A program made the translations under genes and the position numbers. DNA of 40,078 nucleotides, taken from NCBI GenBank assembly GCA_944325005.1, contig CALUYO010000015.1:1-40078 (forward strand). The letters are read 5' to 3'. Below, one piece after another: positions 4,337 to 40,078 of the stretch. This stretch comes from Candidatus Gastranaerophilales bacterium. GTDB taxonomy: Bacteria; Cyanobacteriota; Vampirovibrionia; Gastranaerophilales; Gastranaerophilaceae. How positions within the stretch are numbered: position 1 is the stretch's first letter; each line of letters begins with the position of its first letter. Below the pieces are notes generated by a model that was given only the letters and a program-made list of their open reading frames with translations, ran no database searches and was not told the DNA's origin.

Positions 4337-4365
4337 TTGATTTAATTATTCTATTAATATATAAT
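4337..4365 (+). promoter_or_regulatory. predicted promoter of the LysR gene (leaderless arrangement)
   Basis: TTGATT at 4337-4342 and TATAAT at 4360-4365 are separated by 17 bases. The hexamer ends six bases before the ATG at 4372, so transcription would begin at or next to the start codon. No Shine-Dalgarno sequence is present. The 120-base divergent region also has to hold the aldo/keto reductase promoter and a LysR site; I could not single out a convincing T-N11-A palindrome. Confidence 0.5.
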
Positions 4366-4371
4366 CGTAAT

Positions 4372-5262
4372 ATGAATACAAAACAAATTGATTATATCTT
4401 AGAACTTGCTCAAACATTGAATTTTAACAGGGCTGCAGAAAATCTTTTTATATCACAGCCGACATTGACTTACCAGATAAAGGAAGTTGAGAAAGAATTA
4501 AATTTTAAAATATTTGAAAGGACCGGCAAAAGCGTTTCATTAACCCCTGCCGGCGGACAATTCTGTTCTGCGTTACGCAGTATTAAGGATGAATTGAAAA
4601 ATGCCATAGAACTGGGGCAAAATTTTAGCAGAAAATATTCTGATGATATTACAATAGGTATTCCTACCCGTTCCTGCATATATTTTTTACCGCAGGCAAT
4701 TAAAGAATTTTCAAAAATTTATCCTGAAATTTCAATTACCCCGATATTTAACGGATTTTACAGACCGGAGGAATTTTTAAAAGGAAATCAGGACATATTT
4801 TTTACATTTGGGAACGAAATGAAACATGTTCCTGATACAAAATGCTTTCATCTGTATGAAAGCCATATTTATCTGATAACCAAAAAAGATGATGAACTGG
4901 CACAAAAAGATATCGTAAAAGTTGAGGATTTGAAAAGCAGGACTTTAATGGTAGGAGGAGGTTCTCCGCCGGAATTAAAAAGATTACAGCAAAAAGTTAT
5001 TAATACGGTTAATGTCGAATATTTTAACAGTTTGAACCATGAAACAACCTTGACAAATATTGCATCAGATAAGGGTATTTGTTTAACCCCCGGATTTTTC
5101 AACGATTTCAGCGAAGAATTTGCCTGGACACCAATAGAAACAGATGAACATTTTGACTGCAAATTGTGTATTCATGTAAATGACAAAAGAGAATGTGTAA
5201 AAGATTTTATAAAAATTTTGCAAAATATTTACTCTGAAAAAGCAAAACAATATAAGTTATAA
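4372..5262 (+). CDS. LysR family transcriptional regulator
   Basis: A 296-residue LysR-type regulator. The N-terminal winged helix-turn-helix is clear: QIDYILELAQTLNFNRAAE, then LFISQPTLTYQIKEVEKELN, then RTGKSVSLTPAG. The rest is the periplasmic-binding-protein-like effector domain. I start it at the ATG at 4372 rather than the ATG at 4246, because the extra 42 residues are hydrophobic, unrelated to the family and overlap the divergent gene. It most likely controls the divergent aldo/keto reductase, hydrolase and SDR operon, as LysR regulators usually do for a divergent neighbour. The inducer is unknown. Confidence 0.93.
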   Translation: MNTKQIDYILELAQTLNFNRAAENLFISQPTLTYQIKEVEKELNFKIFERTGKSVSLTPAGGQFCSALRSIKDELKNAIELGQNFSRKYSDDITIGIPTRSCIYFLPQAIKEFSKIYPEISITPIFNGFYRPEEFLKGNQDIFFTFGNEMKHVPDTKCFHLYESHIYLITKKDDELAQKDIVKVEDLKSRTLMVGGGSPPELKRLQQKVINTVNVEYFNSLNHETTLTNIASDKGICLTPGFFNDFSEEFAWTPIETDEHFDCKLCIHVNDKRECVKDFIKILQNIYSEKAKQYKL

Positions 5263-5316
5263 CTCCTGTTTGTGGATTAAATAATATTAACCCATATAAG
5301 GGTTTACAGGATATGA

Positions 5317-7353
5317 TTAATTTTCTATTGACTGTAATGACGATATTGGATTAGTCAGTATATCTTTACAGGATTTGCTAAAGCTAATGTTCCAATGTTC
5401 TTCCATAAAATCAATTAATTTTGTACTTCGTTTGATAATTTCCTTTGAGGTCCACTCTGGCTCTTGTGCAACTTCTTGTTCACTGTAAGAGCCTTCCATA
5501 TAACCTGTTCTTAATGTTGTTTTACCATCTTCGGATATCTTTGCCTTTTTCTTTTCATCAAAAGAATCATTTTGTAAAATAGAGTTTATTGGTTGCGATA
5601 ACAATAAAAGATTTCCTATAGCATTTTTGTAATATGCTTTTTGTTCTTCATTTAAATCTCCAAATCTGGAAGTCCAATATGTATTAGTGTCATTTTGAGG
5701 ATATATATGTTCAATTGTTTTATCTTTATCTTTTAGTAATATTTCCGGTTTAACTCTGGGATTTCTTATTTTATTTTTAGTTAATGACATTTCATATTCA
5801 TATAAAAAGTATCTTATTTTATCCCAAGCGTAGTATCCATCACTGGTTTTAAATTTGTCTTGAATATATTCGTTGAAAAATGTTTTTATATTTCCATCCG
5901 TTGAAAAACAATCATTTTTAAGAATGGTGTTCATATCATCAATTATTTTTTCTACTGTTACGTTGTTATAACCATGATATAAATCTTTTGAATAATTATA
6001 AAATTTTGCATCATAACTGTTTCTTCTAAAATGATTTAATGCAAAAACAATAAAGACAAATCTTTCAATAGTTTGAAGTAGTTTAATTAAAAGCTCTTTT
6101 GTTAAGCAATTTTCTTCATATTTCTGTAATGCAACAGTTATAAGAGGTCGAAAATGAGCCCCTGCATTAACTCTATTAAATTTATCCAGTAATTCAACTA
6201 TATCTTGCTTGTTTATATATCTTGAAGCTGTTTTAGGATAAAATGAATCAACCCAAAAGCAGGCACTTCCTGCAAGGCTGCTAACATAATTGTTTATTAC
6301 GGCTAGAGTTAGATTATCGGGATTTGTTGTTCCGGTATAACTGATATCTTCATCATCAGGGTCATTATAATCTGATTTTGTAATTAAGTTCGATAATTTT
6401 AAACTTTCATAAACTTTCTTTCTTACAAATTGTTTTTTTAATAAAAATTCTTCAAAATCATTCCCCTTTTGCCTAGAATATCCCCAATAAAATATCCAGT
6501 GAGTTTTCAGAAAATCATCATCCAATAACTCTTCATTGTTATCTTTATTTTTGCCTAATTGTTTATATATTTCTGCCCATGCTTCGACTATAGCTGATTT
6601 AGTATCAATAATATCTTTTTTATTATCAGATATTATTGTTGTTAAAAATAATAGCCTATTTTTTAATAATTCTAAGATTGAAAGTTTTTTCCCTCTATTA
6701 TTCATAGATTCAAAAGCAACATTTATATCAAAATCTTTTTCAATAATAAACTCATTAAATTTCAACTTATTTACTAATTTATCATAGACATTTTTAATAC
6801 CGATTTCATTATTATTTTTATATAATTCATTCAATTTGTCTCTAAAAAATAACTGCGCATTTTCTAATTTATTTGTGTACAAAGTTCTTTGAAGTTCCGG
6901 AGTATTTGGTTCTTTTAGTATTACATGGTTAAAATAGAGAGAACTTTCTTTATCGCAAATATATTGAAATTTATATTTTCGTTTATTTGTTGCAATATTA
7001 TTTTCATATAAATATTTGCTCCTTATATTTTCAACAGAATCACTTTCATATTCAGAAAAAACTATTTTATTGTTACTTTTAGTAAAATTATTATCTTCGG
7101 CAAACTCTATAATTGATTGTATTAGTATAATGCATGTGGTTAGCCTTTGCTGGCCATCAATAACTTCATAAGTATTATTTTCATTTTCTTTTATTGATAA
7201 AACTCCCATATAATGAGGAGTATCCTTAACATTTAGCAAATCTTCCCAAAAATCTGCCAACTGTTGCGTATCCCAAATATATCCACGTTGATAATCCGGA
7301 ATTGTATATGTGCGTTCTCCAAATAAACTCTTTAATGTTTTTAATTCTGACAT
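5317..7353 (-). CDS. GmrSD-type DUF262/DUF1524 nuclease, probable phage defence
   Basis: A 678-residue single-chain protein with the DUF262 domain at the N-terminus (IPDYQRGYIW at residues 18-27 and IDGQQRLTT at 65-73, the ParB/Srx-like NTP-binding signature). A DUF1524 HNH-type nuclease domain follows near the C-terminus (KTIEHIYPQN, then NAIGNLLLLSQPINS). This layout is that of GmrSD type IV restriction enzymes, which cut modified phage DNA, and of related defence proteins. A strong AAGGAG precedes the ATG. The gene stands alone, with no methylase or other defence genes nearby, and lies between a LysR gene and a 5'-truncated aldo/keto reductase, as if inserted. It is visibly richer in AT than its neighbours. 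Target specificity cannot be inferred. Confidence 0.88.
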   Translation of the reverse strand: MSELKTLKSLFGERTYTIPDYQRGYIWDTQQLADFWEDLLNVKDTPHYMGVLSIKENENNTYEVIDGQQRLTTCIILIQSIIEFAEDNNFTKSNNKIVFSEYESDSVENIRSKYLYENNIATNKRKYKFQYICDKESSLYFNHVILKEPNTPELQRTLYTNKLENAQLFFRDKLNELYKNNNEIGIKNVYDKLVNKLKFNEFIIEKDFDINVAFESMNNRGKKLSILELLKNRLLFLTTIISDNKKDIIDTKSAIVEAWAEIYKQLGKNKDNNEELLDDDFLKTHWIFYWGYSRQKGNDFEEFLLKKQFVRKKVYESLKLSNLITKSDYNDPDDEDISYTGTTNPDNLTLAVINNYVSSLAGSACFWVDSFYPKTASRYINKQDIVELLDKFNRVNAGAHFRPLITVALQKYEENCLTKELLIKLLQTIERFVFIVFALNHFRRNSYDAKFYNYSKDLYHGYNNVTVEKIIDDMNTILKNDCFSTDGNIKTFFNEYIQDKFKTSDGYYAWDKIRYFLYEYEMSLTKNKIRNPRVKPEILLKDKDKTIEHIYPQNDTNTYWTSRFGDLNEEQKAYYKNAIGNLLLLSQPINSILQNDSFDEKKKAKISEDGKTTLRTGYMEGSYSEQEVAQEPEWTSKEIIKRSTKLIDFMEEHWNISFSKSCKDILTNPISSLQSIEN

Positions 7354-7534: not shown

Positions 7535-7837
7535 AAACTGTACTTTACGCCTGAAGCGCTTGAACACAATATGGAAATAGTTAAACCCGTTAAAAAATGG
7601 GCAAGACGTAAAAATGTAACACCTGCACAGTTTGCACTTGTGTGGATGTTGTCTGAAAAACCCTGGATAGCCCCTATCCCCGGGACAACAAATCCTGAAC
7701 ACCTTGATGACTTCTTAGGTGCAGCGGATGTCAGAATGTCAACGGATGAATTAAAAGAGTTTGAAAAAGATTATTCTAAAATTCATCTTGTCGGACACAG
7801 AGCAGATCCCTTCACAGAAAGCCAGATTGATAAATAA
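7535..7837 (+). pseudogene. aldo/keto reductase, C-terminal fragment
   Basis: The open frame reads KLYFTPEALEHNMEIV, then NVTPAQFALVWMLSEKP, APIPGTTNPEHLDD and LGAADVRMSTDEL. This is the last third of an aldo/keto reductase, including the cofactor-phosphate loop (IPGTT). The barrel strands with Asp, Tyr, Lys and His are missing, and no start codon or ribosome site fits a separate gene, although an internal ATG lies at 7571. The similarity begins near 7535, and the AT-rich 180 bases upstream hold nothing else. The lost 5' part was probably removed when the region beside the GmrSD gene was rearranged. Confidence 0.8.
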
Positions 7838-7849
7838 TTTTTATCCTTT

Positions 7850-8299
7850 TTAGGTTAGAGATTTTATCAAATAAATCATATCAACTAATTGTTTTCCGTT
7901 CTCAACGATAGGATGAGAATAATTATCGGTAAAAAAATTTTTTATTCTGCGGGTTTGAACAAACCCGCGTTTTTTATAGAAATTAAGCGTTGTATCATTT
8001 TCGCCTGTTCCGAGGATTACTGTTCTAAATTTTTCTTTATATCTGTTACATACATAATCAAGTAATTTAGAGGCGTATCCTTTATTTTGATATTCGGGGT
8101 AAGTTGCAAGATTTTTTATTTCAACGGTTTCCGCATCAATCTCCATAACCGCACAGATTGATGTCAATATATTATTATCGTACAAAGCAAAAAGTTTTGA
8201 CGATCCCAGATATTTGTTAATCATTGCTTCATCTTCATCCCCGACTAGCAATATGTCCATAAAATCGGTTTTATTTGAAATAACTTTTCTAATTTCCAT
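7850..8299 (-). CDS. GNAT family N-acetyltransferase
   Basis: A 149-residue GCN5-related acetyltransferase. The acetyl-CoA binding motif A is ATYPEYQNKGYASKLLDYV (Q-x-x-G-x-A type) after the beta strand VEIKNLATYP. The following VILGTGENDTTLNFYKKRGF matches the C-terminal motif B region (NxxxxxFYxxxGF). It is divergent from the SUMF1-like gene at 8363 with a 63-base gap. The acceptor substrate is unknown. Confidence 0.88.
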   Translation of the reverse strand: MEIRKVISNKTDFMDILLVGDEDEAMINKYLGSSKLFALYDNNILTSICAVMEIDAETVEIKNLATYPEYQNKGYASKLLDYVCNRYKEKFRTVILGTGENDTTLNFYKKRGFVQTRRIKNFFTDNYSHPIVENGKQLVDMIYLIKSLT

Positions 8300-8362
8300 C
8301 TTTCAGCTTATTTTTTCTGCTTATTTATCCATGATAGTATAAAGTTAGCGGGAGTAAATATT

Positions 8363-9250
8363 ATGAAAAAAATATTTTTATTATTGGCATTTGTTCTTCT
8401 AAGCATTTTAGTTACTAAAGTCAATGTTTTGGCAGATGATTTAACAGGTTTTATCCTTATACCTGCAAACGGGAATATCAAAGAATTTTATATAGGGCAA
8501 TTCCCTGTTACAAATTTACAGTACAAAACTTTTGTTGATAGTGAAAATGTTAAAAGGCCAAAGTACTGGAAAAACGGAATTTATCCAAACGGCAAAGCAA
8601 ATCATCCTGTTGTATTCATTTCGTATAATGATGCAATTGCTTATTGCAAATGGCTGGAGAAAAAATATCCCGGTTATACATTCAGGCTTCCGACAGTTCG
8701 GGAATGGGAATATGCGGCCTCGGGCGGTAAAAATTATATTTACCCCTGGGGAAATCGGATAAATGACAGCAATTTTAATTATAATAAGCTTGTTGCCTCT
8801 GTCTATTTAAAACAAAATCCGACAGTAACATATAACAATCCAAAATCTTCAAGTTACGGGAAAAGTCTACCGCTAAATCGGGTTATATCAATAAATTCAA
8901 ACGGAAATGTATCCGGTTGGATTAATCACAAAAACTATACGGGTTTTGTTTATACGGATTTGTTTAAAAAAATTATGAGTAACGGCGGTTATACAACCCC
9001 TGTAAACCAATACCTTGGCGGCAAAAGCCCTTTCGGGGTTTATGATATGTCAGGGAATGTCTGGGAATGGACAAGTACAAAAATTATAGCGGCTAACGGC
9101 GCTGAAAAAGGACAGTCAGTCTATGCAATAAAAGGTGGTTCATGGTATGCAAATCCATCTTCCTGTAAAATAACAATGTCAGGTGAGGGAAGAAAGCCTA
9201 ATACCGGTTACAATACAGTCGGGTTCAGGGTTGTGGCTGTCAAAAAATAA
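8363..9250 (+). CDS. exported SUMF1/FGE-fold protein
   Basis: A 295-residue protein with a signal peptide (MKKIFLLLAFVLLSILV, cut near VLA) and a formylglycine-generating-enzyme/SUMF1 fold. Visible motifs are FYIGQFPVTNLQYKTFV, HPVVFISYNDAIAYCKWL, FRLPTVREWEYAASGG, GVYDMSGNVWEWTST, IKGGSW and VGFRVV. In aerobic FGE the active site needs two cysteines after GGSW. Here the first position is Ala (SWYANPSSC) and only the second Cys remains, so sulfatase-type formylglycine formation is unlikely. A structural, ligand-binding or other SUMF1-family role fits better. It is preceded by a GGGAGT ribosome site and followed by the repeat protein and a second SUMF1 protein on the same strand. Confidence 0.85.
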   Translation: MKKIFLLLAFVLLSILVTKVNVLADDLTGFILIPANGNIKEFYIGQFPVTNLQYKTFVDSENVKRPKYWKNGIYPNGKANHPVVFISYNDAIAYCKWLEKKYPGYTFRLPTVREWEYAASGGKNYIYPWGNRINDSNFNYNKLVASVYLKQNPTVTYNNPKSSSYGKSLPLNRVISINSNGNVSGWINHKNYTGFVYTDLFKKIMSNGGYTTPVNQYLGGKSPFGVYDMSGNVWEWTSTKIIAANGAEKGQSVYAIKGGSWYANPSSCKITMSGEGRKPNTGYNTVGFRVVAVKK

Positions 9251-9360
9251 ATACATAATTTAATAAATGAACAATCTATATTTATAAATCGTTAAAGTAA
9301 ATACAAATATAAATTTTGTTAATCCGATAAAACACGCAATTAAAAGAAAGGAATTGTACA

Positions 9361-9645
9361 ATGAAAAAATTTTTAACACTTTTAGTTTTAGCAATGTTTG
9401 TGACGGGAACTTCAACAGTAACAGTTTATGCCGCTGAAGCAACAGGTACGTCAACTGTACAAGTTCAAAAACAGGGTTTAAAAGACGGTCTTAAAGGCGG
9501 TGCTAAACACGGAATGAAATATGGTGCAAAAGATGGAGCCAAAGAGGGTTTAAAATACGGATTAAAAGACGGACTGAAAGATGGTTTAAAAAACGGTGCG
9601 GTTAATGGTACAAAAGAAGGCCTTAAAAACGGCGAGAAAAAATAA
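9361..9645 (+). CDS. small exported protein of G-x-K-x tetrapeptide repeats
   Basis: A 94-residue protein with a clear signal peptide (MKKFLTLLVLAMFVTG, probable cut after VYA, residue 24). From residue 39 a glycine occurs at every fourth position without a break to residue 91 (39, 43, 47 and so on: 14 glycines). The unit is G-(L/A/M/T)-K-x, with one valine in place of lysine, and x is mostly D, E, N, Y or H. The register is the GxxxG glycine-zipper spacing, on a cationic background. I know no named family for it. A GAAAGGAAT ribosome site precedes the ATG. It sits 45 bases before the second SUMF1 protein gene and 110 bases after the first, so the three may form one export-linked set. Confidence 0.8.
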   Translation: MKKFLTLLVLAMFVTGTSTVTVYAAEATGTSTVQVQKQGLKDGLKGGAKHGMKYGAKDGAKEGLKYGLKDGLKDGLKNGAVNGTKEGLKNGEKK

Positions 9646-9690
9646 AGCTTGCAAGCATAAAATTATAGTATTACAGGAAAGGATGTTTAT

Positions 9691-10641
9691 ATGTTAAAAA
9701 GAATATTTATTATAAGTCTGATAACATTTTGTACCGTAAATTTTGCGCAGGCCGCAAATATGAGGGTTAATCCTGAAGCAAAATCTTTCAGATACAGTAC
9801 AACTGTTGAAAAAGAACGCCCGCAGCTTGATGAAATAACCAGAAGTCTTATTGCCGCATATCAAAGAAATCCTACGGAAGCAAACAAACAGGCTTTGAGA
9901 AATCAAATAGCCGTAAATTACGATAAAGTTGTTGCAAAGAAAAAAGCAAAACTTGAAGAGTTGAGGAAAACTGCCAAAGACCAATCAAAGATTGATGAAA
10001 TGCAGGTAATTGTTGATGAAATGCTCAGAGACAGGGAAAGTAGAATAGATCAGACTTTGAACCGCTTTACGGATTCCCGCCTTAAACCCGGTGTTCGTGA
10101 AACAAAAGACGGATATCTGCCGGTTCTCGGTGCGGCTCAGAATGTTTCAATAGCTTATACTCCTGTAACAAATGCGGAATATGCAGAATTTTTGAAAGCA
10201 ACCGGCAAAAATGCAGCCGCCTCTGCTCTGCAGAGTAAAGCAAATTATCCTGTAGTAAACGTTTCATATAACAATGCGGTTGCATATTGCAATTGGCTTA
10301 CTAAAAAAGACAGAAGTGCAGTTTACAGACTTCCGACAGAAAAGGAATGGGAACAGGCGGCAGGACACATGCCTAAAGATGCGGATTTTAATGCCGGTGA
10401 AAACAAGGGAATTACACCTGTAAATGCATTCTCGGGAACTCTTTCCGCCTCTGGCGCTATTGATATGTGGGGTAATGTTTGGGAATGGACTTCGACATCC
10501 AGAACCCAAAATACAAAAGCTGTTAAAGGAGGCTCATGGGATTCAGCGAGAACCGATTGCAGAACCGAAGAACGTACAGAAAGCCGAACCCTCAGCAACG
10601 GCTATGATAATGTCGGATTTCGTGTTGTCAGGGTAAAATAA
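9691..10641 (+). CDS. exported SUMF1/FGE-fold protein with helical N-terminal domain
   Basis: A 316-residue protein with a signal peptide (MLKRIFIISLITFCTV, cut near AQA). A charged, probably coiled-coil region follows (about residues 35-120, with KKKAKLEELRKTAKDQSKID and DEMQVIVDEMLRDRESRID), then a SUMF1 domain. Motifs are YTPVTNAEYAEFLKATG, YPVVNVSYNNAVAYCNWL, YRLPTEKEWEQAAG, AIDMWGNVWEWTSTS, KGGSW and VGFRVVRV. As in the upstream paralogue, the first FGE active-site cysteine is replaced (SWDSARTDC: Ser), so classic FGE activity is unlikely. The helical part may anchor or oligomerise the protein in the periplasm. A GAAAGGAT ribosome site precedes the start. Confidence 0.85.
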   Translation: MLKRIFIISLITFCTVNFAQAANMRVNPEAKSFRYSTTVEKERPQLDEITRSLIAAYQRNPTEANKQALRNQIAVNYDKVVAKKKAKLEELRKTAKDQSKIDEMQVIVDEMLRDRESRIDQTLNRFTDSRLKPGVRETKDGYLPVLGAAQNVSIAYTPVTNAEYAEFLKATGKNAAASALQSKANYPVVNVSYNNAVAYCNWLTKKDRSAVYRLPTEKEWEQAAGHMPKDADFNAGENKGITPVNAFSGTLSASGAIDMWGNVWEWTSTSRTQNTKAVKGGSWDSARTDCRTEERTESRTLSNGYDNVGFRVVRVK

Positions 10642-10715
10642 CCGGTAAACATAAGGGCGTATCTACTTTAAATTTTACAATTTCCCTTTATATACATAAA
10701 TTATTCCTTTTTAGA

Positions 10716-11720
10716 TTAATCTTTAAATTCCTGAGATTTAACAGAGCCCAGTTTTGCTATATCTCTATCTGTTCTGTTGCCGTAAATAGTTATTTTATTT
10801 AATTCAGTTTCTATTTTATTAAATTCTTCATTAGTCAAAACAATATCTGCCGCACTGAGGTTTTCAATTACCCTCTCATCTTTTCTCATTCCCGGAATTG
10901 GTACCACATGGGGATACTTATGCAGCATCCATGCAAGAGATAATTGAGCCGGTGTTACGCCTTTTTTGTCAGCAACAGAGTATAATAAATCTAAAAGCGG
11001 CTGGTTTTTAACAACATTTTCAGGATTAAATCTTGTAATAACACGTCTTACGTCATCGCCTTTATACACGTTATCCTTATTATATTTACCTGACAAGAAG
11101 CCGCTTGCCATAGGTGAAAAAGCTACAAAACCAATATTCAATTCCTGACAGGCAGGAATAACATCTTTTTCAAACATTCTTTCCATCATAGAATATTCGC
11201 TTTGAATTGCTGCTAAGGGAGTTACTGCATGAGCTTTTCTTATCTGTTCTTCTGTTGACTGTGATTGACCCCAGGCACGAATTTTACCTTCTTTTATGAA
11301 TTCACCCATCCAACCTGCAACTTCTTCTACATTACTGTCTAATGGCACTCTGTGTTCATAATAAATATCTATATAATCTGTTTGAAGCCGTTTTAAAGAA
11401 GCATTCAGTGCATTTGTCACGCCTTGTTTGCTCAATTTGCCTTCCGGAATTTCTTGCCCCGGCTGGAACACCGGAACAAATTTTGTTGTCAAAATAATTT
11501 TGTCCCTAAAAGGTTTTACAGCTTTTCCGACAAGTTCTTCATTTACATAGGGGCCATAAGCCTCTGCTGTATCAAACAATGTGCAGCCTAAATCATAAGC
11601 CTTGTGTATAAGCCTTATTGATTCTTCTTCCGCAGGTATTGCACCATAACCGTGGCTAAATCCCATACAACCCATACCGACTGCCGAAACTTCAATATCT
11701 CTTAATTTTCTATAATTCAT
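10716..11720 (-). CDS. aldo/keto reductase (AKR13/YakC-like)
   Basis: A 334-residue NAD(P)H-dependent reductase. Catalytic residues are Asp50 and Tyr55 (FDTAEAY), Lys80 (TTKFV) and His123 (YYEHRVP). GMGCMGFSHGYG near the N-terminus, AIQSEYSMMERMFE, FSPMASGFLSGKY and VPIPGMRKDERV complete the family pattern. AGGAGGT precedes the ATG. It belongs to a different subgroup from the reductase at 3259-4251. The gene is transcribed alone; a palindrome at 11775-11791 lies in its promoter region. Substrate unknown. Confidence 0.92.
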   Translation of the reverse strand: MNYRKLRDIEVSAVGMGCMGFSHGYGAIPAEEESIRLIHKAYDLGCTLFDTAEAYGPYVNEELVGKAVKPFRDKIILTTKFVPVFQPGQEIPEGKLSKQGVTNALNASLKRLQTDYIDIYYEHRVPLDSNVEEVAGWMGEFIKEGKIRAWGQSQSTEEQIRKAHAVTPLAAIQSEYSMMERMFEKDVIPACQELNIGFVAFSPMASGFLSGKYNKDNVYKGDDVRRVITRFNPENVVKNQPLLDLLYSVADKKGVTPAQLSLAWMLHKYPHVVPIPGMRKDERVIENLSAADIVLTNEEFNKIETELNKITIYGNRTDRDIAKLGSVKSQEFKD

Positions 11721-11774
11721 ATTTACCTCCTGTTTATGTATACAATTATAATAATATAATTATGACCATAAGTT

Positions 11775-11791
11775 AATGACAAAAAGTCATT
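11775..11791. promoter_or_regulatory. palindrome, possible operator of the aldo/keto reductase gene
   Basis: AATGAC-AAAAA-GTCATT is a perfect 6-base inverted repeat with a 5-base centre, about 55 bases upstream of the ATG at 11720. On the minus strand it contains TTGTCA, which could serve as a -35 element for TATATT 18 bases later. A repressor or activator bound here would be well placed. It has no U-run and a short stem, so it is not a terminator. Confidence 0.4.
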
Positions 11792-11835
11792 TAGCTATTA
11801 TTTTGTAAATTTTTTAAAAAAAATTGAATATAAAT

Positions 11836-11868
11836 AAAAGAAGTCCAAATTCGTATCAGACTTCTTTT
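11836..11868. terminator. probable terminator of the NTF2-like gene
   Basis: AAAAGAAGTC (11836-11845) and GACTTCTTTT (11859-11868) form a perfect 10-bp stem with a 13-base loop, just after the NTF2-like stop codon (minus strand). The arms end in T-runs on both strands. The stem is short of GC pairs, so termination strength is uncertain. Confidence 0.55.
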
Positions 11869-11875
11869 CATGTTG

Positions 11876-12256
11876 CTATATGATAGTAATTTTATTTGTA
11901 CTGATGAATATCTTCGAAATAATTTTCCATTCTCCGTTGATTTTTAAAAGCTGAAATAAATCAGAATAAGTATTTGTTTTCCCCTCTAAACAACAATGAA
12001 CACACGCAACAGTTTCTTCCAGGGCAATGACATCCGTTCTTATTTTTAATTCAGGCTGTGCTCCGACTTTGTCAATAAAGTTAAAAAGATTTTCAATATA
12101 GCCCTCCATTAATGCTTCACCGGAAATCCCATGTATAATAGCATTTTTATGACACACCGGTCTTAATATTTCAGATTTACCTTGAACCTGTGCTTCATAG
12201 TATTTGTCCATAACTTGTAAAACATTTTCATATTCTTGTCTTAAAGATTTTGTCAT
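11876..12256 (-). CDS. NTF2-like (SnoaL/lumazine-binding type) protein
   Basis: A 126-residue protein with the pattern of the NTF2-like cone fold: an N-terminal helix pair (YENVLQVMDKYYEAQVQGKS), the LRPVCHKNAIIHG segment, and alternating C-terminal strands (VACVHCCLEGK, YSDLFQLLKINGEWKIISKIF). The 'L...NGEWKI..K.F' ending is typical of putative lumazine-binding and SnoaL-like proteins, which bind small ligands or act as isomerases or cyclases. GAAAGGAGA precedes the ATG. It lies upstream of, and in the same direction as, the aldo/keto reductase, but a hairpin separates them. No catalytic role can be assigned. Confidence 0.75.
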   Translation of the reverse strand: MTKSLRQEYENVLQVMDKYYEAQVQGKSEILRPVCHKNAIIHGISGEALMEGYIENLFNFIDKVGAQPELKIRTDVIALEETVACVHCCLEGKTNTYSDLFQLLKINGEWKIISKIFISTNKITII

Positions 12257-28247: not shown

Positions 28248-29624
28248 TTACTTAACGAACAAAGGCTGAACAAGCACATATATATCGTTAAATAATACAA
28301 ATATCAAAAGAAGTATTAACAGCGAGAAAAATACCGTCATTATTTTATTTGATAATTCTTCGCTTACAGGTTTACCCTGAATTTTTTCAATCAGAAGGAA
28401 TAACAGATGCCCGCCGTCAAGCGCCGGTATCGGAAGTATATTCAATATTGCCAAATTCATTGATATTACTGCAGTTAAAAGTATTCCGTAGAAAATACCT
28501 TCATTACTTATAATATCGCCGCCAACTTTAGTAATCAAAACAACACCGTGCATATTTTTAAGCGGGATTTTTCCTGTAAATAATTGTTTTAAAACAATCA
28601 GCATTGACTTTGTTTCGTTATAAAGATAGTTGTAACTGGTTGTTAATGCTGATTTAACACCTGTAACAGGAATAAGAATTTCTTTTCTGTTAAGTGTGAT
28701 CCCGATCAGTCCATCCTTATCAGAGTAAAGAGGTTTTAACAAAATTTCTTCTCCGTTTCTCAAAACTTTTATGTAAAGAGGCTTTTCGGTATCGGAAAGT
28801 GCGTATGCCAGATCTTTCAGAGAGTATGTGCCGTCTGTTTCAATAAATTTTTTGCCTTTTACTTCATCACGTAATTTTATCTGTGCATCTGAAAGTTTTA
28901 CTTCATCGGGTTTATATAGTTCAACGGCATTAAGAACATTTTTACTGAGAATTATTTTACCTTCTTTTTGAAGATTCTGAGGAATTTTCACTGCTAAATT
29001 CTTCTGAATAATTTCATTTTCTTCGAATGCCGGATTAATTTTTTTCAAATTTTCGTAATTTTGTTGAACAACTTCTTCATTTGTTTTTCCGTCATACGAA
29101 GCGCTGTACATTGCATATAAATTAACACCGTATTTAGTATCAACGTTTGTATTGTTAATTTGTAAAATTTTATCGCCTTTTTGCATTCCTGACTGCCATA
29201 CGCTTGCTTCTTTCGGAGCTACAATATCGTTAACATAGATATCGAATTTTCCTGACGGCATATTATGCCACAAAGCTGCTGTTAAAAGAACAAGAACATA
29301 AGCACAGATTACGTTTGCAATAACACCTGCCGAGAAAATAATTGCTCTCTGCCATACAGGTTTATTCATTAATCTGTCAGGAGAATTTTGAGGCAGTTCT
29401 GAATCCTTGTCATCATCAGGGAAAGACACGTAACCGCCAAAAAGAAAAGCATGAACAACAAGCGTAATTCCGCCGACTTTCTTTTCCCACAGCGTCGGTC
29501 CAATCGGCAAACCTATACCGAATTTGTCGACTTTAACCTTAAAAAGTAAAGCAGCACCGAGATGCCCTAATTCATGTACAAGAATTAAAAGTCCTATAAG
29601 TAAAATCATTATTATGATTGACAT
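28248..29624 (-). CDS. rseP: site-2 protease, RIP metalloprotease RseP-type
   Basis: A 458-residue intramembrane zinc protease (M50/S2P). The active site HELGH (residues 17-21) lies in the first membrane helix, and the second metal-ligand region is LNILPIPALDGGHLLF near the C-terminus. LWEKKVGGITL and the FPDDD loop match RseP. PDZ-like segments occupy the periplasmic middle (KEASVWQSGMQKGDKILQIN). It cleaves membrane-bound anti-sigma factors and leftover signal peptides. GGAGAGGG sits just upstream of the ATG at 29624; a TTG at 29642 is in frame but would include this ribosome site. Confidence 0.9.
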   Translation of the reverse strand: MSIIIMILLIGLLILVHELGHLGAALLFKVKVDKFGIGLPIGPTLWEKKVGGITLVVHAFLFGGYVSFPDDDKDSELPQNSPDRLMNKPVWQRAIIFSAGVIANVICAYVLVLLTAALWHNMPSGKFDIYVNDIVAPKEASVWQSGMQKGDKILQINNTNVDTKYGVNLYAMYSASYDGKTNEEVVQQNYENLKKINPAFEENEIIQKNLAVKIPQNLQKEGKIILSKNVLNAVELYKPDEVKLSDAQIKLRDEVKGKKFIETDGTYSLKDLAYALSDTEKPLYIKVLRNGEEILLKPLYSDKDGLIGITLNRKEILIPVTGVKSALTTSYNYLYNETKSMLIVLKQLFTGKIPLKNMHGVVLITKVGGDIISNEGIFYGILLTAVISMNLAILNILPIPALDGGHLLFLLIEKIQGKPVSEELSNKIMTVFFSLLILLLIFVLFNDIYVLVQPLFVK

Positions 29625-38489: not shown

Positions 38490-40078
38490 ATGAAGAATTC
38501 AGTATGGAACTACGGCACAAATGTGTCGTTATTCGGACGTACATTTAGAGAAAAGTCTGTATTAAATTATGGTTTGCAAAAATTTTCTGCCTTTACATTA
38601 GCAGAAATGATGGTTGTAATGCTCATCATGAGTATCATATTGGCAGCCATGGCGCCTGTAATGACCACTCGTAATAAATCAGAGAGTTTATCTCCGTGGC
38701 GTTATACGGATGACGGTTCCAATGCCTATTTTGGTATAGCAAAGAGTCAGATCGCCATGATCGGCCAGCGCGATTTAGCAGAGGATAACAGTGATGATCC
38801 TGCGCGTTTAATCATTAATGCGGATTCCGATTCCACTCCAATCCATTTATCCTTTAAACGTAATAATACCAAAGTTGGTCGTTTACAGTTGACCGGCGAT
38901 GCTAACCTTGTATTGGGCAGTGCCGATTTAGCCAGTGCAACTGGGACAAAGAACAGTTCCTTTGGAATAAATTCAATGGATGGAGTAACTAGCGGCAGTG
39001 CTAATACAGCTATTGGCGCAGAGAGTTTAAAATCAGTCACCAGCGGTAGTTATAATACCGGTGTTGGCGAAGCGAGTTTATTTTCCAATACAAGCGGGGA
39101 AGGTAATATCGCCATCGGCAGTTCCGCCTTACGCAATAATACAACGGCGAATTATAATGTAGGCATCGGTCAGGACAGTATATCAGGTAATACAAGCGGT
39201 GGCAGTAATACTGCCGTTGGTTATGGTTCATTTTCTCGTAAGAGCGGGAACAATAATGTAGCTATCGGCGCCCTTGCATTACAGCAGGGTGGCGGTGACG
39301 GTAATATTGCCATTGGAGCCAATGCAAATAATGTTGATATGGAAGGTTTAAAAAATACAATATCTATCGGTTATGATACAGATGCAACCGGTGAGGGCTC
39401 TCTGGCTATAGGTCATTCCATTGCGAATGGTCAGGCATCAATCGCCATTAGTCCCGGAGCTTTATCCTCCCCTCAGCCTCGAACAACAGCCGACGATACA
39501 GGTTCTATAGCAATTGGCGGTAATGTCCAGGTAAAGGGTGGTTCTACCAGTATAGGTACAGGCTCTCAAGCAACCGGTTTATCTTCTGTTGCGATAAACG
39601 CTTATGCAACTGCAAATTCAGCAATTGCCATCGGTGATAGTTCCAGTGCATCAGCCGAAAGTTCTATTGCAATCGGTAATGGGGCTAGTGCTTCAAAAGG
39701 AGCTTCTATTGCAATCGGTCACGATGCTAATGCAACTTCAGATACTCCTTATTCCTCCTTCGCTAATTCTATAGCTCTAGGTAATTCATCGGAGGCATTA
39801 GGTAACTCTTCAATATCCATCGGCGATTCACGGGCACATGGTACTACTTCAATCGCCATTGGCAATAATGCAAATGCCTTAGGTAGTCAGTCAATATCAA
39901 TAGGTGAGTCTGCCGGCAGCAGTAATAGTGAAGCTCCAGGAGCAGGCATTATAGCAATAGGAACTTATGCGTGTCGGCATGTAACCGGCATGAACAAGGT
40001 CTGTATCGGGAATTATTCCGGTCCGGCTGGTGGATCTGCTGATGCAACTGATTCCTCTGAAAGTATCTATTTGGGAAG
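38490..40078 (+). CDS. prepilin-type N-terminus fused to trimeric-adhesin/tail-fibre head repeats (partial)
   Basis: The frame is open from the ATG at 38490 to the window end (529 complete codons), so the 3' part is missing. Residues about 1-30 are a long polar leader. KFSAFTLAEMMVVMLIMSII is a class III prepilin signal with the same Ala at -1 and Glu at +5 as the pseudopilin at 16562. After a spacer (GIAKSQIAMIGQ, HLSFKRNNTKVGRLQLTGD) come repeats. First are units like SGSANTAIGAESL and SGEGNIAIGSSAL, of the type found in phage tail-fibre and S74-chaperone proteins. Then come YadA/Hia head-like units such as ESSIAIGNGASASKGASIAIG. Codon use is richer in GCC, GGC and ATC than in neighbouring genes. 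It is probably a surface fibre or adhesin built on a pilin export signal. Confidence 0.85.
   Translation, partial: MKNSVWNYGTNVSLFGRTFREKSVLNYGLQKFSAFTLAEMMVVMLIMSIILAAMAPVMTTRNKSESLSPWRYTDDGSNAYFGIAKSQIAMIGQRDLAEDNSDDPARLIINADSDSTPIHLSFKRNNTKVGRLQLTGDANLVLGSADLASATGTKNSSFGINSMDGVTSGSANTAIGAESLKSVTSGSYNTGVGEASLFSNTSGEGNIAIGSSALRNNTTANYNVGIGQDSISGNTSGGSNTAVGYGSFSRKSGNNNVAIGALALQQGGGDGNIAIGANANNVDMEGLKNTISIGYDTDATGEGSLAIGHSIANGQASIAISPGALSSPQPRTTADDTGSIAIGGNVQVKGGSTSIGTGSQATGLSSVAINAYATANSAIAIGDSSSASAESSIAIGNGASASKGASIAIGHDANATSDTPYSSFANSIALGNSSEALGNSSISIGDSRAHGTTSIAIGNNANALGSQSISIGESAGSSNSEAPGAGIIAIGTYACRHVTGMNKVCIGNYSGPAGGSADATDSSESIYLG

Follow-up and report, generated by a model that had tools for sequence, protein, structure and literature searches.

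Described proteins with long GX3 registers

Long series of glycines spaced four residues apart (GX3 or GxxxG registers) are known from several proteins. FliH, a cytosolic flagellar-export protein, carries up to 12 GxxxG motifs, and the longest Swiss-Prot case outside low-complexity sequence has 10 (PMC2674601). The FliH repeats are predicted to be helical and have been proposed to mediate helix dimerisation, and lysine is infrequent at the second variable position (x2) of their units (PMC2674601). Another example is that of the eukaryotic, cytosolic proteins Yae1 and Lto1 (PF09811, Yae1_N), the "deca-GX3" proteins, in which GX3 occurs about ten times and drives protein-protein complexes: mutating the glycines of Lto1 impairs Yae1-Lto1 binding, and the GX3 motifs are needed for complex formation (PMC4523923). 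Extended GxxxG motifs are also found in small exported proteins, namely, Cdz and the class IIb glycine-zipper bacteriocins; CdzC/D have small hydrophobic residues at the x positions and use type I secretion (PMC5380434). Finally, Rpn/PD-(D/E)XK-type nuclease or transposase-like proteins can end in C-terminal G-x-K/R-E-G, Lys/Glu-rich GxxxG runs.

The window analysed in this work, a stretch of 40,078 nucleotides from a Candidatus Gastranaerophilales bacterium, encodes a 94-residue protein (9361..9645, forward strand) with a repeat of the unit G-[LAM]-K-x, referred to here as the GxKx protein. It shares with the AxxxG(xxxG)mxxxA segments of FliH/YscL the long unbroken register, the variable repeat number and the predicted helical state. 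However, the repeat is one segment of FliH, in which a C-terminal FliH domain comes after it, whereas the GxKx protein stands alone: it has a signal-peptide-like start, ends right after the repeat and has Lys nearly always at x2; no flagellar genes were recognised near its gene. With 13 GxxxG motifs it exceeds both the FliH and the Swiss-Prot maxima (PMC2674601), in support of the original description as an extreme GxxxG extension. It differs from Yae1/Lto1 in its signal peptide, and from Cdz in its Lys/polar x positions and Sec-type signal (PMC5380434); hydrophobic x positions of the Cdz type were not found in the GxKx homologues. The nuclease- or transposase-like proteins are different again, being about 300 residues long, with the repeat as a tail, without a signal peptide and without the neighbouring gene described below.

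Pfam gave no match above cut-off, the best being Yae1_N (16.2 versus 27.5 bits). The strongest NCBIfam signal was FliH PRK13386 (E 1.3e-7), for which only residues 28-88 align and the score of 31.2 bits lies far below the equivalog cut-off of 192; the other NCBIfam matches were weaker and attributed to chance. PHROGs returned only families of unknown function (E 1e-6 and weaker) and PADLOC no match, and the sole PDB result, the NG repeat of Rhoptry neck protein 2 (9ygj), was rejected as compositional. A literature search with GLKDGLK and related phrases found no paper, Rfam had no match within 7800-11900, and the window contains no tRNA. It had been remarked at the outset that no described family with this exact register was known. 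This holds for the exported, stand-alone, lysine-registered form, which is undescribed in Pfam, NCBIfam, PHROGs, the PDB and the papers searched, but not for long GX3 runs as such, which are known from FliH and Yae1/Lto1.

Sequence and register of the GxKx protein

The reading frame starts with ATG, 8 nt behind a good Shine-Dalgarno sequence, AAAGGA (9347..9352, forward strand). By inspection, the N terminus (KK, a hydrophobic core and V-Y-A|A) resembles a Sec signal peptide (putative residues 1-24, 9361..9432), with cleavage near residue 24 (VYA|AE) that would leave a mature protein of about 70 residues. Glycines occur at residues 16, 29, 39, 43, 46, 47, 51, 55, 59, 63, 67, 71, 75, 79, 83, 87 and 91. 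Fourteen of these, from residue 39 to 91, form an unbroken four-residue register, and Gly46 is the single additional, off-register glycine. The 14 corresponding units cover residues 39-94 (9475..9642). In 13 of the 14 units, Gly is followed two residues later by Lys, the exception being GAVN (residues 79-82). The position directly behind Gly is occupied by Leu, Ala or Met in 12 units, by Thr in one and by Glu in one. In 200,000 shuffles of the mature protein, which has 69 residues including 16 Gly, the longest register run reached was 9. The register, the lysine position and the hydrophobic or small residue beside each glycine were thus confirmed as originally described.

The protein has a net charge of +7 and a pI of about 10, consistent with the cationic background that had been noted, and the net charge ranges from +7 to +11 across the four forms examined. 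The repeat is hydrophilic (mean Eisenberg -0.13) and contains no Trp, Phe or Cys; Tyr is the sole aromatic type in the mature protein. The 14 repeat glycines are encoded by a mixture of GGT, GGA and GGC and the leucines by TTA, CTT and CTG, whereas the Lys codon is always AAA. With several codons each for Gly and Leu, the repeat was not recently amplified as DNA and is not a young microsatellite; TRF detected only weak period-12 and period-36 arrays. Elsewhere in the window, near its end (38984-39719), imperfect tandem repeats with periods of 51 and 42 bases (unit like ATTGCAATCGGTAATAGGGCC...) are possible coding sequence for the head repeats of a YadA-type adhesin.

Homologues in two phyla

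The GxKx gene is absent from all 32 other genomes of the genus. Relatives were sought with short exact peptides across about 85,000 species genomes and then with profiles, and four homologues were located outside the window species. The exact-peptide scan identified a Gastranaerophilales MAG (L039, 61% identity), whose copy has one in-frame TGA ahead of the repeat, and a Kiritimatiellae MAG from goat rumen (L040), whose copy of 85 aa is intact. A profile of three sequences led to an intact 70-aa copy (L057/L068) in G531, a genome of the same phylum as the Kiritimatiellae MAG, and a profile of four to an 86-aa copy on an IMG/VR contig (L107). Genome G992 carries a GxKx sequence identical to that of L039. 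As the exact-word scan misses divergent copies, L057 among them, the true number of homologues must be higher.

All five sequences share a signal-peptide-like start, a (G-[LAM]-K-x)n array and a basic tail ending in Lys/Arg; in the four homologues the start consists of basic residues, a hydrophobic core and A-x-A or similar, a layout that lends support to the predicted export. The number of units, which was to be checked, does vary, from 14 in the window to 12 (L039), 9 (L040), about 8 (L107) and 7 (L057). Of the 42 units in the window, L039, L040 and L057 sequences, 39 have Lys at x2, and x3 is mostly Asn, Asp, Tyr, Lys or Glu. On sequence features, the five fit the definition proposed here for an exported GxKx-repeat family, namely, signal peptide, register and basic end.

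Other matches were rejected. A pattern of four GxKx units, run on 386 genomes of the phylum, matched, besides this gene, simple DNA repeats or nuclease-like tails, and a reversed control pattern matched about as often. The G-x-K/R-E-G nuclease-like tails were recurrent background, and the remaining profile matches were also tails of this kind or simple repeats. L002 and L005 proved to be antisense to ORFs of the (DKPA)n and (PEVK)n types, and L108 antisense to an SPSIS-repeat protein. The match in Prevotella, L041, was a peptidase-like ORF, and a phage match (H2/L042) and a plasmid match (H1) correspond to an antisense frame and an Rpn-type nuclease. L002, from the same genome as the window, encodes at 1055-1687 a membrane-anchor-like protein with a long C-terminal (DKPA)n repeat.

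Purifying selection and decay of the locus

The comparison of the window with L039 gave pN 0.14 and pS 0.69 over the 51 codons of the repeat, and dN 0.30 and dS 1.33 over all 87 codons. Synonymous changes dominate, and the repeat is therefore under purifying selection and the protein translated and kept. In L039, both the GxKx gene and its neighbour SUMF1-B (see below) are interrupted by stops. In-frame stops were also seen in SUMF1-B copies of other species of the family Gastranaerophilaceae (L037, L077, L079/L081 and L080), which suggests, from the sequences, a repeated and ready decay of the locus in this lineage. Two of the SUMF1-B stops are TGA at conserved Trp codons; recoding of TGA as Trp was considered and dropped, since other stops replace Asp, Glu, Gln and Leu codons, marking these copies as pseudogenes.

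Association with an exported SUMF1-fold protein

Two genes for exported FGE-fold proteins flank the GxKx gene on the same strand: SUMF1-A upstream (8363..9250; Pfam FGE-sulfatase, 1e-42) and SUMF1-B downstream (9691..10641; Pfam FGE-sulfatase, 9e-29). SUMF1-A is missing beside SUMF1-B in both sister species that have the latter (G032 and G003), and its link to the GxKx gene is not conserved. SUMF1-B, on the other hand, is the immediate same-strand neighbour of the GxKx gene in four of the five loci. It lies downstream in the window (gap of 45 bp) and upstream in L039 (21 bp), L068 (159 bp) and L107 (14 bp); in L107, the SUMF1-B stop is followed after these 14 bp by the GxKx ATG behind an AAGGAG site, and then by a terminator-like hairpin. 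The SUMF1-B orthologues are about 58-81% identical to that of the window over their full length, including the N-terminal helical domain, which is conserved.

The question whether homologues always lie beside SUMF1-fold genes is answered in the negative: four loci show the association, whereas the fifth, in the Kiritimatiellae draft genome G418, has a GxKx gene and that genome gave no match to SUMF1-B. Downstream of the G418 gene come an alpha/beta-hydrolase gene, then a sigma factor gene, and a protein kinase gene. The sigma factor shares 57% identity with its counterpart downstream in L068, and a protein kinase occurs in both loci, so that the wider locus is related. Only some 3% of the genomes sampled yielded SUMF1-B (11 of 383 in the family and 10 of 387 in the phylum sample), and for this reason its repeated adjacency to the GxKx gene is not due to chance. 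Most SUMF1-B genes have no GxKx neighbour, the only cases across the two samples being the window, G992 and G531; the GxKx protein is thus dispensable for SUMF1-B. The pair is optional from the SUMF1-B side and close to a rule from the GxKx side.

The model of SUMF1-B has a helical N-terminal domain (residues 48-126, pLDDT by block mostly 74-93) and a poorly modelled FGE domain. Foldseek places the protein with the FGE structures 6muj and 1z70 (E 3e-5 to 6e-5), its PDB relatives include FGE, PvdO and EgtB, and PorK/GldK are among the sequence matches. The best single-sequence PDB match is SUMF2, a paralogue that is not known to have FGE activity. PorK/GldK are exported envelope proteins of the same fold family that work in complexes; SUMF1-B, however, has an N-terminal helical domain of its own and is not a GldK (NCBIfam 38 versus 350 bits). 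All 14 orthologues share Cys290, which lies towards the end of the FGE domain. The protein is mildly basic (net charge +9).

Several further genes were observed around these loci. Five SUMF1-B or GxKx loci of the Kiritimatiellae phylum (L068, L083, L084, L086 and L040) contain a metallo-beta-lactamase-fold hydrolase and also sigma-70 region-4 factor, Ser/Thr kinase and aldo/keto reductase genes. The window has an aldo/keto reductase gene (10716-11720) after the pair. In L107 (2100-5503), the pair lies next to genes further downstream that by inspection are prophage-like, among them a reverse-transcriptase-like ORF (4352-5503, minus strand) and one resembling lysozyme; such surroundings are a possible route for the spread of the pair.

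A shared upstream element

In G032 and G003, SUMF1-B directly follows a divergent acetyltransferase gene, without SUMF1-A and the GxKx gene. Just 5' of SUMF1-B, both have the element ATGAACAA-N13/14-TCGTTAAA, whose counterpart in the window, the putative promoter/leader region ATGAACAA-N14-TCGTTAAA (9267..9296, forward strand), lies 5' of the GxKx gene. From the position of the element it follows that the GxKx gene separates SUMF1-B from its old upstream region and ends 45 bp ahead of it. Among 33 genomes, three have a single copy of the element, namely, that of the window, G032 and G003, and a further genome has it at a site without similarity to the window locus. This near-unique occurrence is a stronger argument than the local alignment of the upstream region to L037 and L038, which scored above all 500 shuffles, narrowly, in AT-rich sequence. 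The shared element points to one transcription unit, and the GxKx gene is probably co-transcribed with SUMF1-B. A looser match, TGAACAA-N-TCGTTAA, is present within an unrelated gene (28267-28291) and is probably due to chance.

Predicted structure

AlphaFold2, run with four sequences, models the GxKx monomer as a signal helix (residues 3-16) and one helix spanning residues 30-91, at low confidence (mean pLDDT 58.7, mostly 50-71; pTM 0.26). A single long helix is plausible on this model. The hydrophobic moment of the repeat has its maximum at 90 degrees; at 100 degrees, the angle of a helix, it is only about 0.12 when taken over the full length. In a regular helix, the stripes of Gly and of Leu would therefore wind round the axis, so that the repeat is not an ordinary amphipathic membrane helix. 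Going by this geometry, helices could stay in close contact all along only with several partners or in a right-handed supercoil.

Possible function of the GxKx protein

The best reading of these data is that of a real exported, stand-alone GX3-helix protein and not a chance repeat. A functionless low-complexity ORF grown by DNA slippage would agree with the weak 12-base periodicity, the absence of the gene from the rest of the genus and the stop in L039. This is highly improbable, as synonymous changes dominate, several codons are used for Gly and for Leu, and genomes of another phylum have the same signal peptide, register and gene neighbour. It had also been proposed that the protein is antimicrobial or packs against membranes, and a small, cationic, exported, glycine-zipper-like protein of sporadic distribution does resemble a bacteriocin. 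Its composition does not support such a role: the repeat is hydrophilic, Tyr is the only aromatic residue type, the moment at 100 degrees is small, and the x positions are Lys or polar and not hydrophobic as in Cdz (PMC5380434). Antimicrobial or membrane activity is considered improbable on this composition. No immunity gene or dedicated transporter was recognised by eye among the window ORFs and the homologue loci.

Given the gene pair, the export of both products and the Lys register, an exported helical partner or scaffold is the most economical reading, and a likely co-transcribed small partner of SUMF1-B is tentatively preferred here, at somewhat less than even confidence. Removal of the signal peptide would leave about 70 residues, mostly in one long helix with a Gly stripe at every fourth residue and, in each unit, a Leu/Ala/Met and a Lys position. 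This helix may act as a small partner or scaffold of SUMF1-B in the periplasm or at the cell surface. GX3 runs in soluble proteins serve to pack helices. By analogy with Yae1-Lto1 and FliH, the Gly face of the GxKx helix could pack closely against a second copy or against the helical N-terminal domain of SUMF1-B, and the Lys side might enable the assembly to bind anionic envelope material, the ligand that its charge suggests. Homologues in distant genomes of two phyla keep the signal peptide, repeat and basic end, in agreement with a partner role; G418, with a GxKx gene and no SUMF1-B match, speaks against it, and the protein may act otherwise. The many SUMF1-B genes that lack a GxKx neighbour, the stops in both genes of L039 and the low confidence of the monomer model also count against this reading. 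Since SUMF1-B is itself basic, simple electrostatic pairing of the two is not favoured. The pairing was observed for the genes; physical contact of the proteins is what we infer from it, as Sec export would follow from the N-terminal sequence, the helical state from the model and the packing from the described GX3 proteins.

Two alternatives concern the role of SUMF1-B. The GX3 helices may pack only with one another into bundles or fibres of a self-assembling envelope or surface protein, whose Lys stripe would coat extracellular LPS, nucleic acid or anionic polysaccharide, with the SUMF1-fold neighbour merely co-expressed. The gene in G418, the positive charge of all four forms examined and a varying repeat number with a constant register, as expected of a structural array, are in favour of this; it is nonetheless unlikely, since one specific SUMF1-fold gene adjoins in four of five loci and the upstream element is shared. 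Alternatively, the exported SUMF1-fold protein could modify the G-L-K-x units, its superfamily including the formylglycine-generating enzyme, EgtB and PvdO. Tandem, near-identical units beside an enzyme-fold gene in an apparent operon, the FGE, PvdO and EgtB relatives in the PDB and the invariant Cys290 would fit. Such modification is nevertheless quite doubtful: without Cys, the GxKx protein does not qualify as a classical FGE substrate, GxKx neighbours are missing beside most SUMF1-B genes, and the best PDB match is SUMF2.

A bolder reading, for which the likelihood is low, is that the pair constitutes a new two-gene exported module across phyla. Its Gly/Lys helix, with a period of four (90 degrees per residue), would form a strongly right-handed rope that serves the SUMF1-fold protein as a scaffold or as a repeatedly modified substrate. 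As an exported helix, the GxKx protein would represent a nearly pure GX3 helix of natural origin that lies neither in the membrane nor in the cytosol, longer in register than the FliH and Swiss-Prot maxima of the 2009 survey (PMC2674601). The structural role of a long soluble GX3 run would become testable in a protein of 70 residues, and an otherwise unannotated SUMF1-fold protein of gut bacteria would gain a candidate partner.
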